This document shows positions 766 through 22,680 of a stretch of DNA of 23,400 nucleotides, piece by piece. A program made the position numbers and the translations under genes. Position 1 is the first letter of the stretch, and each line of letters starts with the position of its first letter. The notes beneath the pieces were generated by a model. The model was given only the letters and a program-made list of their open reading frames with translations, had not been told where the DNA came from and searched no databases. The DNA comes from a virus, in IMG/VR virus record IMGVR_UViG_3300047443_000049, positions 1 through 23,400 of that record. One strand, 5' to 3'.

Positions 766-796
766 ACGCCCCGTCAGTCGGCCGCTGGCGGGGCGT
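766..796. terminator. Hairpin between convergent genes (probable bidirectional terminator)
   Basis: ACGCCCCG (766-773) pairs perfectly with CGGGGCGT (789-796). A T-G wobble and an inner CAG/CTG extend the stem to 12 pairs around a 7-base loop. It begins 8 bases after the stop of the rightward gene and covers the last codons and stop of the leftward gene. There is no T-tract on either strand, which is common for actinobacterial terminators. Termination is inferred from position and structure. Confidence 0.55.
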
Positions 797-1064
797 CGTC
801 ACGCTTCGCTGACGCCCGTCCCTTGCCCACCGCGATCTGCCCCGCCGCCTCGCCCGTGACGCTCATCCGCGCCCCGATCACCCGGAACGTGTGGCCCTGG
901 CTCTTCGCGGTGATGACGGCCTGCTGACGCACGTCAGCCACGAAGGTATGCAGCTGCGGCCACTCCTGGAGCAGCTCGGCGCACGCCGCCGCACGGTCCA
1001 GCGCGTCCGGGATGGCCTCCAGCGCCCGCAGCGCCGCACGCACCTGCTCGACCTCGCCCGCCAC
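774..1064 (-). CDS. Small helix-turn-helix-like regulator
   Basis: This is a 96-residue, mostly helical protein on the minus strand. Residues 1-44 form a charged helical region (EVEQVRAALRALEAIPD). Residues 45-82 follow the pattern of small actinobacterial sigma-70 region-4-like HTH proteins: RQQAV, then a turn at QGHTF, then IGARMSVTGEAAGQI. The recognition helix is degenerate compared with the usual LGxSRxRxxQI. I chose GTG at 1064 because GGGAGG lies about 8 bases upstream and the family usually begins just before such an EVEQ segment. A TTG at 1133 would add 23 residues but sits inside a palindrome. It is the only leftward gene in the window and is divergent from the DUF2637 gene, so it could control the palindromic sites between them. 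Confidence 0.65.
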   Translation of the reverse strand: MAGEVEQVRAALRALEAIPDALDRAAACAELLQEWPQLHTFVADVRQQAVITAKSQGHTFRVIGARMSVTGEAAGQIAVGKGRASAKRDDAPPAAD

Positions 1065-1109
1065 CTGCAACACCTCCCGCGCGGAGGGTAGGGCTGCATA
1101 ACCCACCGC

Positions 1110-1146
1110 CCAAGGGGTACCCTCTGAATCCAAGGGGTACCCCTTG
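1110..1146. promoter_or_regulatory. Tandem palindromic operator candidate
   Basis: Two related sites lie in the gap between the divergent genes. The second, at 1131-1146, is a perfect 16-bp palindrome, CAAGGGGTACCCCTTG. The first, at 1111-1126, is CAAGGGGTACCCTCTG, with an intact GGGTACCC core. Their centres are 20 bp apart, close to two helical turns, so two dimers would sit on nearly the same DNA face. That layout is typical of a repressor operator. The cognate protein is unknown; the adjacent leftward HTH-like protein is the obvious candidate. Confidence 0.6.
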
Positions 1147-1194: not shown

Positions 1195-1230
1195 GAGCCC
1201 CGACCGGTGGTTGCACACCGATCAGGGCTC
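1195..1230 (-). promoter_or_regulatory. Stem-loop, fully paired only in minus-strand RNA
   Basis: A 15-position stem (1195-1209 with 1216-1230) closes a 6-base loop. In plus-strand RNA, positions 1201/1224 and 1204/1221 are C-A mismatches. In minus-strand RNA both become G-U wobbles, giving an unbroken stem. It lies just upstream of the ribosome site (AGGAGA, 1238-1243) of the DUF2637 gene. It could be a leftward terminator or attenuator ahead of the HTH gene, or a 5' leader structure for the rightward operon. The gap 1065-1253 otherwise shows only the palindromes at 1110-1146 and no convincing -10/-35 pair. Confidence 0.45.
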
Positions 1231-1253: not shown

Positions 1254-2120
1254 ATGGCTGAACGGCAGCCTACCCACCCCGCAGCGAACTGGACCACCTG
1301 CCCGGAGTGCGGTGCACCCACCGGCAACGGCCCGCACACCTGCAAGCCCCGCGCCTCGATCGGCCTCGCCATCGGCGCCGCCGTCATCATCACCGGCATC
1401 ACCGGCATCGCCTTCTGGCTGAGCTACTACCACCTGCACGACGTAGCCGCCGGACACGGCCTGGCCGTCGACCCCGCCCGCGCCTGGGCCTGGCCCGCCG
1501 TCCTCGACCTGTTCTACCTCGCCGGAGAGCTGCTGATCCTCCGCGCCTCCTGGCTCCGCACCGTCGACTACTGGGCCATCGCCCTCACCGCCCTCGGCGC
1601 CGTCGGCTCGATCGGCCTCAACGTCGCCGGAGTCGGCACCAACGCCGCAGTCCTCGACTACGTCGTGGCCGCCGTCCCGCCCATCGCCGCGCTGCTGGCG
1701 TTCGGGGCGCTCATGGGCCAGGTCCACCGCTCCTTCGTCCGGACCCCGGCCGCAGTCCCGCCGATGCCCGCCGCGCCGCCCGTCATCACCCGCGTCACCG
1801 AGCAGCCGACACCCGTCAGCGCCCCGCCCATGCAGGCACCCGAGCTGCCTGCCGGATACGCGCCCGCCGACGAGCCGCTGACGCCCGACGCTGAGCCCGA
1901 GCCGACGCCCGTCCGCGCGCCGTACGACGACCTCCGCGTCGAAGGCATCCGCAAGCTCTACGACACCGGCCTCCGCCCCACCTCCATGGAGATGGCCAAG
2001 GCCGTCGAAGACGCCGGATACCCGCGCCCCGCACCGTCGAGCGTCCGCACCCTGCGCCAGATCATCGAGGCCGTCGAGCCGCACCTCGCTCCCGTGCCGT
2101 TCCCGCGCCGCACCGGCTGA
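1254..2120 (+). CDS. DUF2637 (SpdB-like) membrane protein with winged-helix-like tail
   Basis: This is a 288-residue integral membrane protein. It has a short N-terminal zinc-knuckle-like segment (CPEC at 16-19, HTC at 28-30). Four hydrophobic segments follow at about 35-60, 80-98, 104-127 and 132-156, with the Trp/Tyr and LDLFYLAGE pattern of DUF2637. Next come a Pro/Ala-rich linker (165-222) and a basic helical domain (226-275) that looks like a winged helix (VEGIRKLYDTGLRP, then SSVRTLRQIIEAV). DUF2637 proteins are common in Streptomyces plasmids and integrative conjugative elements, where related Spd proteins act in plasmid spread. A role in DNA movement here is inference. The ATG at 1254 is preferred because AGGAGA at 1238-1243 lies 10 bases upstream; in-frame GTG at 1245 is too close and ATG at 1164 lacks a good site. 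It is the first gene of a coupled membrane cassette. Confidence 0.85.
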   Translation: MAERQPTHPAANWTTCPECGAPTGNGPHTCKPRASIGLAIGAAVIITGITGIAFWLSYYHLHDVAAGHGLAVDPARAWAWPAVLDLFYLAGELLILRASWLRTVDYWAIALTALGAVGSIGLNVAGVGTNAAVLDYVVAAVPPIAALLAFGALMGQVHRSFVRTPAAVPPMPAAPPVITRVTEQPTPVSAPPMQAPELPAGYAPADEPLTPDAEPEPTPVRAPYDDLRVEGIRKLYDTGLRPTSMEMAKAVEDAGYPRPAPSSVRTLRQIIEAVEPHLAPVPFPRRTG

Positions 2121-2272
2121 TGGCCGCCATCTGGCTCACGCTCTTCCTGGTCGCCGCGTCCGCCGCCGGCATCTGGCTCTATGCCAACTCCCGTACCGAG
2201 CTGCTCACCGCTGTCGGCGTCGTCTTCGCCTTCGGCTCCGCACTCGTCTACGTCGCCCTCATCTCCCACTGA
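2120..2272 (+). CDS. 50-residue two-span membrane protein
   Basis: This small gene starts with ATG overlapping the previous stop (TGATG), which suggests translational coupling. The 50-residue product has two hydrophobic segments: residues 3-20 (IWLTLFLVAASAAGIWLY) and 29-47 (LTAVGVVFAFGSALVYVAL). A short polar turn (ANSRTE) separates them, and no other domain is present. The next gene starts eight bases after its stop, and that gene's ribosome site GAGGA overlaps this stop codon. Small two-span proteins of this kind are common in spread cassettes of Streptomyces mobile elements, but I see no sequence feature that fixes a function. Confidence 0.7.
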   Translation: MAAIWLTLFLVAASAAGIWLYANSRTELLTAVGVVFAFGSALVYVALISH

Positions 2273-2279
2273 GGACCCC

Positions 2280-2816
2280 ATGAACCTCGCCAACGGCCTC
2301 ACCGACATGTTCTGGACGGCCTGGTACAACAACGCGGTCACCTTCGGCGGCTTCATCGTCGGCGCCAGCATCATCGTCTTCGGCACCGTCCGCTGGTGGC
2401 ACAAGGAGCGCCCCGCCTGGAAGCCGCTGATCGGCCCGATCATCTGCGTCTTCTACGGCATGCTCCTCATCCTGTCCGCCGGCGGACTGCTCGGCGGCGG
2501 CGCCAACATCCTGCTGTGGGGCTCCAACTGGCTCGGCTACGCCGCCCTCGTCTACGGCGTCGGAGGACGGGCCCCGGACACCACCCGCGCGTACGACCTG
2601 ATGCTCAACAACGGCGGCCACGGCGTCGCCATCCTCACCACCGTCGGCTTGGTCGCGCGCTGGATCTTCGGTAAGCGGAAGTGGCGCACGTCGATCGCCC
2701 TGTCGATCCTCGCCGGGATCTGCCTCGGCCTGTCCCGGGGCACCGTCGAGTACCTCGCGCCGCCGCTGGTGTCGGTCGTCAACTGGCTCGGCGACTACCT
2801 TGCGGGCCTGTCGTGA
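2280..2816 (+). CDS. Multi-span membrane protein of unknown function
   Basis: The 178-residue product has four or five hydrophobic segments at about 20-38, 48-72, 78-94, 114-130 and 137-152. A basic loop (RWWHKERPAWK, 38-48) and a second basic patch (FGKRKWR, 130-136) probably face the cytoplasm. The C-terminus from 160 is weakly hydrophobic (PPLVSVVNWLGDYLAGL). The ATG start is preceded by GAGGA at 2271-2275. The frame is open further upstream, but earlier starts would overlap the 50-residue gene and lack a ribosome site. The stop overlaps the next gene's GTG start (GTGA). I do not recognise a named family. The context suggests a partner of the DUF2637 protein. Confidence 0.8.
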   Translation: MNLANGLTDMFWTAWYNNAVTFGGFIVGASIIVFGTVRWWHKERPAWKPLIGPIICVFYGMLLILSAGGLLGGGANILLWGSNWLGYAALVYGVGGRAPDTTRAYDLMLNNGGHGVAILTTVGLVARWIFGKRKWRTSIALSILAGICLGLSRGTVEYLAPPLVSVVNWLGDYLAGLS

Positions 2817-3415
2817 CGGCCGCCGGGCGCATGGGGGAGGGGTCCGCCGTGCTGTGCTGCCAGTTCGGCCACTGGCTGTTCCCCGGCGCGGTCAAGCCCA
2901 CCCTGGCGCGCCTGATCGGCACCAGCCTGGGCGGCGCTTACGGGGCCGGGGTCGTACTGCCGCACCCGGGCCTGGCGCTGTCCGTGGCCGGGGCCGGCAT
3001 CAGCCTCTGGTGTCTCGCCGCCTGGACCGCCAGCGAAGCGGGCGAGGAGCCGGAGGACGGGGGAGAGGTCGAGTACCTCACCCGGGACGACGCCGTCGAG
3101 CTGCTGTGGGATCTGGTCGGCGACGGCCGCGGCGTGCTCCTCACCGTGCTGCGCAACGCGCTCCAGTGGGAGACCACGAAGGAGGTACGGGACTTCCTCA
3201 CCGACGAGGACATCCCCGTACGTGCGGGCGTGCGCACTGTCGCGGGCAATGGGCCGGGCGTCCACCGGGATGACTTCCCGCCCCTCCCCTCCCCCGTTGA
3301 CGAGCTGTCCCCTGTTGGTGTTGTTGCCGCAGGTGAGGACGCCAACGCCAACGCCAACAACGGCCCCGACCAACGCGACCGGCTCCGGAAGATTCACTGG
3401 CCGCCGCGCACCTAA
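2813..3415 (+). CDS. Membrane-anchored protein with winged-helix-like tail
   Basis: The 200-residue product starts at GTG overlapping the previous stop by four bases. Residues 30-50 and 52-73 are hydrophobic (LIGTSLGGAYGAGVV; LALSVAGAGISLWCLAAW) and probably span the membrane. An acidic linker (74-88) leads to a folded domain at 89-155 whose pattern (LTRDDAVELLWDLVGD, VRDFLTDEDIPVRAGV, GPGVHRDDFPP) resembles winged-helix-like tails I associate with actinobacterial mobile-element proteins. The C-terminus is Asn/Ala-rich, encoded by three tandem GCCAAC units at 3341-3358. The layout (membrane part first, DNA-binding-like part last) mirrors the DUF2637 protein at the head of the cassette. Function is unknown; a membrane-tethered DNA-binding role is inference. 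Confidence 0.75.
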   Translation: MTAAGRMGEGSAVLCCQFGHWLFPGAVKPTLARLIGTSLGGAYGAGVVLPHPGLALSVAGAGISLWCLAAWTASEAGEEPEDGGEVEYLTRDDAVELLWDLVGDGRGVLLTVLRNALQWETTKEVRDFLTDEDIPVRAGVRTVAGNGPGVHRDDFPPLPSPVDELSPVGVVAAGEDANANANNGPDQRDRLRKIHWPPRT

Positions 3416-3418
3416 GCC

Positions 3419-3459
3419 CCGGGGCGACCGCCCGCCTGGCAGCTAGTCGGCCGCCCCGG
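3419..3459 (+). terminator. Hairpin after the membrane cassette
   Basis: CCGGGGCG (3419-3426) pairs with CGCCCCGG (3452-3459). An A-C mismatch and then CCG/CGG extend the stem inward. It starts four bases after the TAA of the last membrane gene. There is no T-tract, so it is a moderate terminator candidate. The remaining gap to 3495 shows nothing else beyond the next ribosome site. Confidence 0.4.
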
Positions 3460-3495
3460 TTCACCCATCCCAACCCACTGAGACGGAGCACCATC

Positions 3496-3603
3496 ATGAC
3501 CGAGCCCACACCCACCCCCGGCGGCTGGACCCCGGAGCAGCGCGAGAAGCAGGCGGCATTGTCCGATCGGGCAAAGCGCCCGCCCGAGCCCGCGAAGGGC
3601 TGA
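3496..3603 (+). CDS. 35-residue micro-protein
   Basis: This short gene has ATG preceded by GGAG at 3485-3488, seven bases upstream. The 35-residue product is hydrophilic and Pro-rich: MTEPTPTPGGWTPEQREK, then an Ala/Lys/Arg segment ending EPAKG. The WTPEQREKQAALSDRAKR stretch could form one amphipathic helix. There is no membrane segment. Its stop begins a 20-bp repeat that recurs at the stop of the next micro-gene. Function is unknown. The gene call rests on the ribosome site and codon bias. Confidence 0.5.
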   Translation: MTEPTPTPGGWTPEQREKQAALSDRAKRPPEPAKG

Positions 3604-3620
3604 CCGCCTGCCACACTCGC
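3601..3620 (+). repeat. Stop-codon-associated direct repeat, copy 1
   Basis: TGACCGCCTGCCACACTCGC begins at the TGA stop of the 35-residue gene. Copy 2 at 3799 differs at one of 20 bases and begins at the stop of the next micro-gene. Confidence 0.7.
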
Positions 3621-3648
3621 CCTGTACCGCCACCATGAGGAGCAGCCC

Positions 3649-3801
3649 ATGACCACCACCCCGCAGCAGCGCCGCCGTATCCCGCTGGCCGAGCTGGCCT
3701 CCCGTGGCAGCGCCGCCGCAACCCCCGCCCTCGCGCGCGTGCTCCCCACGTCGGCGTCCGGTCGCGTGGAACGCGCGGCGTTCCAGTCGTTCTCGCGCTG
3801 A
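3649..3801 (+). CDS. 50-residue basic micro-protein
   Basis: This is a short gene with ATG preceded by AGGAGC at 3638-3643. The 50-residue product is basic and low in acidic residues: MTTTPQQRRRIPLAELASR, then an Ala-rich segment and a C-terminus ending RAAFQSFSR. There is no membrane segment and no recognised domain. A frame starting at the ATG at 3634 stops after five codons, so 3649 is the sensible start. Its stop begins the second copy of the 20-bp repeat, and a terminator-like hairpin follows. It may be a nucleic-acid-binding or accessory peptide, but that is a guess from charge alone. Confidence 0.5.
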   Translation: MTTTPQQRRRIPLAELASRGSAAATPALARVLPTSASGRVERAAFQSFSR

Positions 3802-3818
3802 CCGCCTGCGACACTCGC
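3799..3818 (+). repeat. Stop-codon-associated direct repeat, copy 2
   Basis: TGACCGCCTGCGACACTCGC matches copy 1 at 3601 in 19 of 20 bases and again begins at a gene's TGA stop. The copies are 198 bp apart and bracket the second micro-gene. Confidence 0.7.
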
Positions 3819-3857: not shown

Positions 3858-3935
3858 ACCCATGTAGTTGCGTTCTGGACGATCATCGGTCATCCTGGCC
3901 CCAGTCCTGGCGTGCCCGGACACAGACGCTTCACA
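3858..3935 (+). promoter_or_regulatory. Gap before the late genes: likely late promoter and possible packaging site
   Basis: No gene fits here. A weak promoter-like pair is visible: TTGCGT at 3868-3873 and CATCCT at 3891-3896, 17 bases apart. It is far from consensus. Position alone (between a hairpin and the terminase genes) makes this the natural place for the late promoter. In many phages the cos or pac site also lies beside the small terminase gene, but I cannot identify one by sequence. Confidence 0.3.
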
Positions 3936-3968
3936 GAACGGCCCCCGTCCACCCGGCGGGGGCCGTTC
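3936..3968 (+). terminator. Strong hairpin just upstream of the small terminase gene
   Basis: GAACGGCCCCCG (3936-3947) and CGGGGGCCGTTC (3957-3968) form a perfect 12-bp stem with a 9-base loop. No T-tract follows; instead the ribosome site GGGAGGTGA comes at 3979-3987. It may be a terminator for upstream reading-in, or a leader structure of the late mRNA. Confidence 0.55.
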
Positions 3969-3992
3969 GCATTCCCCCGGGAGGTGACAGCC

Positions 3993-4541
3993 GTGCCGTA
4001 CGGACAGCACGTCGACCAACTCCCCGAAGACGAACTCGACAAGATCCGCGCCATGCACGCCGACGGCCTCGGCCGCAACGAGATCGCACGCCGCCTCACC
4101 CGCTCCGGACGCACCATCACCGTCGTCTGCGCCGACATGGGCCTCAGCTTCGACCGCACCGCCACCGAAGAAGCCACCCGGGCGCGCATGGCCGACCTCG
4201 CCGAGAAGCGCTCAATCCTCGCCGAAGCGCTCACTGACGACGCGCTGCGCCTCACGGAGCAGCTCTGGCAGCCCGCGACCGTCTTCAACATCGGCGGCAA
4301 GGACAACGTCTACACCGACCAGGAAGTCCCAGAGCCCCCCGCCGACGCCAAGCGCGCACTCATGGGTGCAGCAGGCATGGCCATCGACCGCTCCCTGCGC
4401 CTCGTACCGCCGGCCGTCGATAGCGGTGCCGACGACGCCCGCTCGATGCTTGGGAAGCTGTTCAGCGGTCTTGCGGAGGTGGTGAGGGAGCAGGAGGCGG
4501 CCGGGCCCGGCGGCGAGGAGGCGGAGGGTGAGTCTCCTTGA
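3993..4541 (+). CDS. terS: Terminase small subunit
   Basis: This is the DNA-recognition subunit of the packaging motor (182 residues). Residues 13-52 form a helix-turn-helix (ELDKIRAMHADGLGRNEIAR, then TRSGRTITVVCADMG) like those of phage small terminases. The middle and C-terminal parts (60-165) are helical and suit oligomerisation, and the tail (166-182) is Gly/Glu-rich. GTG at 3993 is chosen because the near-perfect site GGGAGGTGA lies at 3979-3987; the longer frame from GTG 3912 would run through the hairpin and lacks such a site. The end overlaps the large terminase start by 14 bases. The identification rests on the HTH plus the immediately following large terminase. Confidence 0.85.
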   Translation: MPYGQHVDQLPEDELDKIRAMHADGLGRNEIARRLTRSGRTITVVCADMGLSFDRTATEEATRARMADLAEKRSILAEALTDDALRLTEQLWQPATVFNIGGKDNVYTDQEVPEPPADAKRALMGAAGMAIDRSLRLVPPAVDSGADDARSMLGKLFSGLAEVVREQEAAGPGGEEAEGESP

Positions 4542-5805
4542 TGCGCTGCCTCTGTCCCGTAAGCAGATCCTGTCCATCGTCCAGTCCGACGCCCGGATCA
4601 ACATCTGGGAAGGCAGCGTCAGGTCCGGGAAGACCGTCGCCTCGCTCCTTCGCTGGCTGATCTACGTAGCGAACGCGCCGCGTGGCGGCGAACTGGTCAT
4701 GGTCGGCCGCACGCGCGACTCCCTGTTCCGGAACATCATCGGCCCACTGATGAACCCGGACCTGTTCGGGCAGCTCGCCCATCAGATCCAGTACAACAAC
4801 GGCGCGCCGATCGCCTACATCCTCGGCCGGCCGGTGCACGTCCTCGGCGCGAACGACGCCAAGGCCGAACCCAAGGTCCGCGGCATGACGTGCGCCGGCG
4901 CCTACGTTGACGAGTTGACGACGCTGCCTCGCACGTTCTTCGACCAGCTGGTGGCGCGCTGCTCCGTCAAGGGCTCGAAGATCTTTGGGACGACGAACCC
5001 CGACAACCCCGGGCACTGGGTGAAGCGCGAGTACCTCAAGCGCGCCGCACAGGTACGGCTCCGCTCCTGGCACTTCGTCCTCGACGACAACCCCTTCTTG
5101 GACCCTGAGTACGTTGCCGCGCTTAAGGCCACCTACACGGGCCTGTTCTACCGGCGGAACATCCTCGGCCACTGGGTGCAGGCAGAGGGCGCCATCTTCG
5201 ACGCGTGGGACGAACAGCGCCACGTTGTCGAGGACGTTCCGCACATCGTCCGCTGGCTGTGCGACGCCATCGACTACGGGACAACCAACCCGTACGCCGA
5301 CCTCCTGATCGGGCTCGGCGTCGACTCGAAGCTGTACGTGGTGAGCGAGTACCGGTGGGACTCCCGCACCGAGCGCCGCAAGAAGACCGACGCCGAATAC
5401 TCCGCTGCCCGCCGCCGCTGGCTCGCAGGCGTCGCGCAGCCACAGACCAACGTCCTCGGCGTACAACCGGAGTGGACGATCGTCGACCCGTCCGCAGCCT
5501 CGTACATCGAGCAGCTGCACCGTGACGGCGTCCCCAGCGTCACGCCGGCCGACAACACCGTCCTCGACGGGATCCGCACCGTCGGCTCACTCATCGCAGG
5601 CGACCGACTGCGCGTCCACGCTTCCGCGAAGGGCCTGATCGAGGAAATCCCGGGCTACTCCTGGGACGACGAGAAGGCAGAGAAGGGCGAGGACGCCCCG
5701 ATCAAGCTCGACGACCACTCCTGTGACGCGCTGCGGTACGGCGTGCGTACGACCGAGGCCCTGTGGCGGCCGTACATCCCGACCCTGCTGGAGGTGGCCG
5801 CCTGA
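4528..5805 (+). CDS. terL: Terminase large subunit (PBSX/Terminase_3-like)
   Basis: This is the ATP-driven packaging motor and nuclease that fills the prohead (425 residues, usual length). The ATPase part shows Walker A GSVRSGKT at 29-36, Walker B YVDE with D128-E129, and the coupling motif GTTN at 154-157 followed by PDNPGHW. The C-terminal RNase H-like nuclease has the expected acidic residues: D249 in AIDYGTTNPY, D320 in TIVDPSA and D400 in DDHSCDALRYG. The GTG start follows GGAGGCGGAGG inside the terS end. The stop overlaps the portal start (TGATG). All catalytic motifs are intact. Confidence 0.97.
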   Translation: MSLLDALPLSRKQILSIVQSDARINIWEGSVRSGKTVASLLRWLIYVANAPRGGELVMVGRTRDSLFRNIIGPLMNPDLFGQLAHQIQYNNGAPIAYILGRPVHVLGANDAKAEPKVRGMTCAGAYVDELTTLPRTFFDQLVARCSVKGSKIFGTTNPDNPGHWVKREYLKRAAQVRLRSWHFVLDDNPFLDPEYVAALKATYTGLFYRRNILGHWVQAEGAIFDAWDEQRHVVEDVPHIVRWLCDAIDYGTTNPYADLLIGLGVDSKLYVVSEYRWDSRTERRKKTDAEYSAARRRWLAGVAQPQTNVLGVQPEWTIVDPSAASYIEQLHRDGVPSVTPADNTVLDGIRTVGSLIAGDRLRVHASAKGLIEEIPGYSWDDEKAEKGEDAPIKLDDHSCDALRYGVRTTEALWRPYIPTLLEVAA

Positions 5806-21136: not shown

Positions 21137-22057
21137 ATGGCCACCCCCTTGACCGCAGACGCCCTCGTCGCCGCTCTCGAAGGCGAAGGCCTGACCGTCC
21201 ACGAGCACGCTGGTTGGCGCACCCACAACCGGGAGAAGGCCACCGGCAAGGGCTTCGGCCCCGTCTACGGCGTCCTGATGCACCACACCGCTGGCCACGG
21301 CGACAAGGAGCTGTGCTTCAACGGCCGCTCCGACCTCCCCGGGCCGCTGTGCCACTCCTGGCTGGGACAGACCGAGGGCCTGTGGATGATCGGCCACGGC
21401 CGCACCAACCACGCGGGCCTGGTCGACCCCGACGTCATCGCCGCCCTGCGCGCCGAGGCCTCCGTGCTGCCGAAGGACGACAAGGCCGACGCCGACGGCA
21501 ACGACGTCCTCTACGGCATCGAGATCGAGAACTACGGCACCGGCAAGGACCCGTACCCGGACGCCCAGTACGCGCAGGCGGTGCTGTGGGCGGCCGCGAT
21601 CTGCCGGGCACACGGCTGGTCGGAGAAGAGCGTCGCCGGGCACAAGGAAGTCCAGCCCGGGAAGATCGACCCCTCGTTCGACATGGACGTCTTCCGGGCG
21701 GACGTCAAGAAGCAGCTCGCCAAGACCGTAGGCAAGCCCGTCAGCGCCCCGGTCGCCGCGACGCCCACCGTCGACTTGTCCCGGCTGGTCAACGCGGCCA
21801 AGAAGGACCCGAAGGCGAGCCAGGGCCATGTCACCTACCGGGCCGGGGTCAACCTTGTCGAGGCCGCGCTCCTGGAGCTGCGGTACCTCAGCAAGGACTT
21901 CGCCGGGGACGGCTCCTTCGGCAGCCGCACCGTCGAGGCGTACGCGGCCTGGCAGCGGCACCTCGGCTACACCGGCAAGGCCGCCGACGGCATCCCCGGC
22001 CGCGTCTCCCTCGGCAAGCTCGGCGCCCGCACCGGCCTGTTCACGGTGGTCGCATGA
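21137..22057 (+). CDS. Endolysin: N-acetylmuramoyl-L-alanine amidase with C-terminal binding domain
   Basis: This 306-residue enzyme cuts the amide bond between muramic acid and the peptide of the cell wall at lysis. Residues about 20-195 are an Amidase_2/PGRP domain with likely zinc ligands in VLMHHTAG (H49 or H50), VAGHKEVQPG (H169) and KIDPSF (D178), plus GIEIENYG (127-134). A Pro/Ala linker (198-212) leads to a peptidoglycan-binding-like helical domain (about 215-300; FAGDGSFGSRTVEAYAAWQR). There is no signal peptide, so export needs the holin. GAGGAGGG at 21126-21133 is the ribosome site. The stop overlaps the next ATG (ATGA). Confidence 0.95.
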   Translation: MATPLTADALVAALEGEGLTVHEHAGWRTHNREKATGKGFGPVYGVLMHHTAGHGDKELCFNGRSDLPGPLCHSWLGQTEGLWMIGHGRTNHAGLVDPDVIAALRAEASVLPKDDKADADGNDVLYGIEIENYGTGKDPYPDAQYAQAVLWAAAICRAHGWSEKSVAGHKEVQPGKIDPSFDMDVFRADVKKQLAKTVGKPVSAPVAATPTVDLSRLVNAAKKDPKASQGHVTYRAGVNLVEAALLELRYLSKDFAGDGSFGSRTVEAYAAWQRHLGYTGKAADGIPGRVSLGKLGARTGLFTVVA

Positions 22058-22425: not shown

Positions 22426-22680
22426 ATGTCCCTCAACCTCCCCAGCTCTGACACCGTCGTGAAGACCGCTGCCACCTACGCCAGAGACCTCGCCGAGCGC
22501 GTCGTCAGCACCTTCCTCCAGGCGTTCATCAGCGGCCTGGTCCTCACCGCCCCGTTCGACCTGCACATGTGGCAGGCCGCCTCCCTCGGCGGAGCGTCCG
22601 CTGTCCTATCGCTCGCCAAGGGCCTCGTCGCCCGCTGGCGGTCGGTCACCAACAGCGCGTCTCTGGCCAAGAACGTCTGA
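22426..22680 (+). CDS. Holin (r1t-like)
   Basis: This 84-residue membrane protein forms lesions that let the endolysin reach the wall. Residues 29-44 (STFLQAFISGLVLTAP) and 49-68 (WQAASLGGASAVLSLAKGLV) are membrane spans. The N-terminus is polar and the C-terminus is short and basic (ARWRSVTNSASLAKNV), as in the r1t holin family. The ribosome site is weak: only CGGAT at about 22415-22419 is seen, unlike the GGAGG sites of neighbours. The stop overlaps the next ATG (TGATG). Confidence 0.88.
   Translation: MSLNLPSSDTVVKTAATYARDLAERVVSTFLQAFISGLVLTAPFDLHMWQAASLGGASAVLSLAKGLVARWRSVTNSASLAKNV

Follow-up and report, generated by a model that had tools for sequence, protein, structure and literature searches.

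Why would a phage set, directly before its late genes, a run of four genes that all appear to encode membrane proteins, two of them with DNA-binding-type tails? Spd proteins, which the set recalls, have so far been studied on conjugative plasmids, whose spread involves TraB, and to our knowledge their mode of action is still unsettled. DUF2637 and Spd proteins as such are already known; our literature searches, which were weak on subscription journals, found no account of a conserved TraB-less phage cassette with two DNA-binding-type membrane proteins. We argue tentatively, and with somewhat less than even confidence, that the four genes form an Spd-like cassette lacking TraB, carried by Streptomyces phages and prophages, and that it would tether or spread phage DNA in the mycelium.

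Anatomy of the four-gene set

The whole stretch of DNA analysed here (the window) is a complete IMG/VR record of 23.4 kb. On its plus strand, g1 (1254-2120) encodes a DUF2637 membrane protein of 288 aa with four TM helices (residues 33-163), a disordered linker and a C-terminal HTH; g2 (2120-2272), a 50-aa protein with two TM helices; g3 (2280-2816), a 178-aa polytopic membrane protein of phrog_16379; and g4 (2813-3415), a 200-aa protein of phrog_34550 with two TM helices and a C-terminal winged helix. Coordinates and letters agree with the junctions described in an earlier sequence-only reading: TGATG, in which the g1 stop (TGA, 2118-2120) overlaps the g2 ATG at 2120; GAGGA at 2271-2275, lying over the g2 stop ahead of the g3 ATG at 2280; and GTGA at 2813-2816, where the g3 stop overlaps the GTG start of g4. 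The same reading held that the four genes encode only membrane proteins, and hydropathy peaks are indeed present in all of them (four in g1, two in g2, about five in g3 and two in g4).

Downstream of the cassette follow a putative terminase small subunit with an HTH (3912-4541, plus strand; HTH_38, phrog_5536), located directly 5' of the terminase large subunit, TerL (4528-5805, plus strand; PF03237, 1.4e-13; phrog_2, 4.5e-41), and then portal, capsid and tail genes, an endolysin and a holin. The presence of a small two-TM protein together with other membrane proteins near late genes could suggest a lysis or membrane-permeabilising (holin/spanin-like) cassette, but the endolysin (21137-22057) and the holin (22426-22680) lie elsewhere in the window, as they do in the phage OnionKnight (genes 22-24), so a lysis module is rejected; DNA-binding tails do not fit such a role either, and we consider it very improbable. 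Upstream of the cassette, the gene at 27-758 (phrog_7575), which has homologues in many related loci, carries a C-terminal CPDC/CGTC zinc-finger-like motif.

The two tails were modelled, with the rest of g1 and g4, by AlphaFold2 on alignments of relatives. In the g1 model, a disordered linker joins four long helices to a tail of three helices (residues 227-274; 1932-2075, plus strand; pLDDT about 90) that lacks a beta wing; in the g4 tail (residues 91-151; 3083-3265, plus strand; pLDDT 94-97), elements are arranged as helix-strand-helix-helix-strand-strand (H-E-H-H-E-E), the order of a winged helix. The winged helix that had been expected in both tails is thus predicted with high confidence in g4, whereas the g1 tail is HTH-like only. 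A conserved motif, DTKxVRxLL / GNGPGVHxxD, marks the g4 domain, and the tail of a g1-slot protein in one relative (L168) matches Pfam HTH_24 above its cut-off. Fold searches of the PDB with the g1 and g4 models returned no significant match, many winged-helix proteins being among the weak, non-significant matches of g4, and solved structures searched by sequence yielded nothing of use. The disordered tail of g4 (3317-3365) has a Cys-rich motif (GCCCRS) that is retained in many relatives and an Asn-rich run (ANANANN) retained in most.

The family of g1 and its link to plasmid transfer

The assignment of the first gene to DUF2637 is borne out by a profile match to PF10935 (E 4.4e-13; 49.9 bits against a curated cut-off of 22.8). 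g1 also matches phrog_733 (E 9.5e-31), which PHROG labels 'excisionase', a label that RefSeq phage records likewise attach to DUF2637 proteins of phiSASD1 (L003, 5932-6702) and Dubu (L004, 5932-6693) and that would make g1 an excision factor. However, g1 is a 288-aa four-TM protein rather than a small soluble directionality factor, its Pfam family is DUF2637, and in OnionKnight the annotation 'excise' stands on another gene (34), the corresponding gene 57 being called a membrane protein, so that the label looks wrong on DUF2637 proteins and this reading is hardly credible.

The company that DUF2637 genes keep points elsewhere. In Streptomyces genomes, which carry 1-11 DUF2637 copies each among those sampled, the chromosomal genes of the short class follow directly after TraB/FtsK in 20 of 20 sampled loci, a figure that applies to a class picked by length from a longer list and not to all DUF2637 genes; at 9 of the 20 loci the gene escaped our own DUF2637 model and was placed by a Pfam search and coordinates. 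These TraB modules, which are probably actinomycete integrative conjugative elements, contain genes that pass the same family cut-off as g1 but place them after TraB/FtsK, whereas in phages g2-g3-g4 and terminase come after g1. Two small plasmids carry TraB, a gene of about 100 aa and then DUF2637, which thus occupies the slot of spdB on pIJ101; in a third plasmid DUF2637 is found without TraB annotated directly before it.

Conversely, the g1 slot of several phages is filled by a relative of pIJ101 SpdB. A phmmer search with pIJ101 SpdB matched phage g1-slot proteins at 4.5e-6, 4.7e-5 and 2.2e-4, an HMM built from five plasmid SpdB proteins scored 1.6e-8 to 3e-5 against a set of 86 g1 proteins, and hhalign of the phage relatives against plasmid SpdB gave 96.7%. 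The g1 family of the window itself does not match pIJ101 SpdB directly, DUF2637 and SpdB profiles do not align directly (hhalign, 0.2-3.7%), and a path through an intermediate group is weak (49%, with controls below 0.4%); an iterated SpdB profile drew in DUF2637 members but was not relied on because of profile drift. By sequence alone, therefore, the link between DUF2637 and SpdB is only suggestive. Since the g1 slot of these phages is filled by just the two membrane families that come after TraB on plasmids, g1 is nonetheless best read as a counterpart of SpdB, with a four-helix membrane domain and a predicted cytoplasmic DNA-binding tail.

The likeness extends to architecture: pIJ101 SpdB and other Streptomyces Spd proteins combine a membrane domain with a C-terminal HTH-like tail. 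SpdB2 of pSVH1, which we liken to the phage cassette by description and not by sequence, is described in PMC4170104, reporting Tiffert et al. (2007), as a membrane protein that forms oligomers, interacts with TraB and binds dsDNA. Plasmid Spd systems differ in lying beside TraB, and no counterpart of g4 was found when a plasmid relative was looked for; as far as tested, with the plasmid search covering g4, g2-g4 appear phage-specific. The earlier suggestion that DUF2637 and such tails are characteristic of spread genes is accordingly upheld in part, by the TraB adjacency, the two plasmids and the SpdB relatives in the g1 slot, and weakened by the non-significant direct DUF2637-SpdB match and the missing plasmid relative of g4.

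The model that recognised TraB/FtsK at all 20 chromosomal loci found none near the phage cassettes in about 180 loci. A full tra-spd module is thereby ruled out, and, having no TraB motor, the cassette cannot work exactly like its plasmid counterpart; pump-driven transfer is excluded unless a motor of the host or of a co-resident element serves. Direct repeats near the cassette formed no clt-like array.

Recurrence, control and exchange

Whole or in parts, the cassette occurs at 109 distinct IMG/VR loci and 40 loci of Streptomyces genomes. Among the IMG/VR loci, whose counts depend on the queries used, g3 is present in 97, the g4 tail in 58, both in 46, and DUF2637 with g3 in 43; g3 and the g4 tail are 192-303 bases apart, and TerL lies on the same strand, at a median distance of 3.1 kb, in 42 of the 83 with enough sequence. 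A two-TM ORF of 40-70 aa (median 48) sits immediately 5' of g3 in 74 of 131 loci. Two separate searches of 199 Streptomyces genomes, less query-conditioned than the IMG/VR counts, found the g4 tail in 27 and g3 in 35, the two adjoining in 14 as judged from coordinates; in 16 of 39 of these genomes a TerL profile matched downstream of the cassette, at a distance of up to about 7 kb (coordinates read by eye). These whole-genome searches replaced a scan of genome contigs that had returned one locus only.

Among 50,697 records, OnionKnight, which carries an integrase and a repressor and grows on the laboratory strain S. lividans, was the sole isolated phage in which the full order turned up, although single-protein searches of these records are weak (window g3 misses OnionKnight g3). 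Its cassette likewise lies at the genome end, beside terminase (gene 1), and consists of a divergent DNA-binding gene (56), a DUF2637 gene (57) and genes for membrane proteins of 48, 168 and 127 aa in the same order (58-60), but gene 60 lacks the winged-helix domain. In TurkishDelight (genes 97-100), a membrane protein with an HTH-like tail, gp97, with a profile match of 99.7% to the phage SpdB class, stands at one end of the set and the g4 winged-helix motif (gp100) at the other; the middle genes differ, and the set is not beside terminase in the stretch seen. With OnionKnight, the IMG/VR loci and the Streptomyces genomes, the four-gene order recurs elsewhere, often beside terminases, and the idea that these genes are never found together outside the window is clearly contradicted. 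Because genes, order and spacing recur widely, and because close pairs of g1 and of g4 have dN/dS values of 0.20-0.48, indicating purifying selection, the arrangement is not a product of chance.

The cassette also has a control region of its own. A divergent gene for a small HTH-like protein, a putative local repressor (up119; 774-1133, minus strand; start TTG at 1133 or GTG at 1106), is homologous to OnionKnight gp56, annotated 'DNA binding protein', and has homologues at 38 of the 89 viral loci with enough upstream sequence. Between it and g1 lie two tandem operator-like palindromes (1110-1147), an imperfect one at 1111-1126 and another at 1131-1146 (CAAGGGGTACCCCTTG), spaced by 20 bp; these are the only copies within the window, where 0.05 would be expected. 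Relatives have a palindrome of other sequence at the equivalent position, e.g., GGTGTCGGCTACCCGACACC or GTGATGGGTACCCATCAC, and the arms co-vary between phages; a site that differs in sequence yet stays palindromic is what would be expected if repressor and operator changed together. A leader hairpin (1195-1230, plus strand) directly 5' of the g1 ribosome-binding site has compensatory changes on both sides in three of seven pairs of a 13-sequence alignment.

Two membrane proteins with HTH or winged-helix tails, encoded directly before late genes, might be thought to be membrane-bound regulators, g1 and g4 acting as one-component transcription factors that link membrane state to expression of the terminase and late genes or of the cassette. 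Yet a separate soluble HTH gene is already at the operators, in chromosomes the short-class DUF2637 genes go with TraB and not with late promoters, and two polytopic tail-less partners would not be needed, making this role rather improbable.

The cassette, moreover, moves between related phages. A block at 1352-3667 shares 97.2-97.3% DNA identity with three contigs (L005-L007), compared with about 67-77% on either side of it; in the comparison with L008-L010, identity is 91-98% over much of the flanks, while the g3 end and the whole of g4 are replaced. These contrasts indicate that the cassette is exchanged as one unit and that near relatives have divergent alleles of it. Such exchange, together with the cassette's own regulation, favours the main rival to tethering or spread, superinfection exclusion, in which the membrane proteins would block or trap the incoming DNA of related phages, recognised at the membrane by the DNA-binding tails. 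All four products are predicted to be membrane-bound, the putative divergent regulator and operators would permit expression from a prophage, the cassette recurs in prophages of sequenced Streptomyces genomes, and its alleles diverge strongly between phages that are otherwise near-identical. Exclusion nevertheless seems unlikely to us: phage genes of all kinds commonly undergo mosaic exchange, the relatives of g1 are transfer genes, and no known exclusion family was matched, PADLOC models of anti-phage defence and exclusion giving no match to g1-g4 at E up to 0.1.

At its left edge, the exchanged block starts right after a zinc-ribbon-like stretch near the N terminus of g1 (CPEC...HTC; 1296-1350) that is otherwise seen in L010 and L117. 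Near its right edge, a 22-bp direct repeat (95%; 3599-3620 and 3797-3818) flanks a small ORF and is a possible recombination site.

Proposed role and related arrangements

On our weighing, tethering or spread of phage DNA appears the most likely role. We count in its favor the two membrane proteins with predicted DNA-binding-type tails, the TraB-linked DUF2637 family and the SpdB relatives in the g1 slot, and the recurring order with its terminase adjacency; we count against it the lack of TraB/FtsK near any phage cassette, of a direct DUF2637-SpdB profile alignment, of a plasmid relative of g4 and of significant PDB fold matches. The anatomy of the set, its kept order, the TraB-linked family of g1, the absence of TraB, the control region and the unit exchange are observed features on which this reading is built. 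We posit that g1 and g4, the second membrane protein to bear a DNA-binding-type tail (here a winged helix), would assemble with g2 and g3 as membrane partners into an oligomer in the membrane. Such an assembly would keep the DNA of the phage or prophage at septa or the hyphal membrane, and would aid its passage into neighboring mycelial compartments or its persistence there, much as Spd proteins do for plasmids. TraB could be replaced by a host septal DNA translocase or by simple tethering, and the divergent HTH protein would keep the cassette under its own repression. That a self-regulated Spd-type membrane machine without a TraB pump moves or anchors viral DNA across hyphal cross-walls, allowing infection or lysogeny to spread from compartment to compartment without virions, is a speculation to which we assign a low probability.

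Should the cassette prove to move or anchor viral DNA in hyphae, phages of multicellular bacteria would have a way to spread without virions; should its role be exclusion, it would be a widespread system not described before. The compact Spd-like set of OnionKnight, which has no TraB, would let Spd function be tested apart from the motor.

Related arrangements were seen at several loci. At L102 (9785-10842) and L103 (9733-10762), two tandem g3 homologues precede a large protein of about 900 aa, with a weak AAA_22 match in L102; a secretion-type module was considered here and rejected, the neighboring large proteins giving no transfer family. At L064 (5039-13004), DUF2637-g3-g4 precedes a gene for a DUF3987/DnaB-type protein and a weak integrase match, and no terminase was found; the cassette may here belong to a satellite or an integrative element. 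A second form of the cassette, present in phages and prophages (L022, 3572-7405; L026, 5156-9387), combines an SpdB-class first gene, variable middle genes, a four-TM protein and a g4-type winged helix; the middle genes of L026 include one for a NERD-domain nuclease-like protein.
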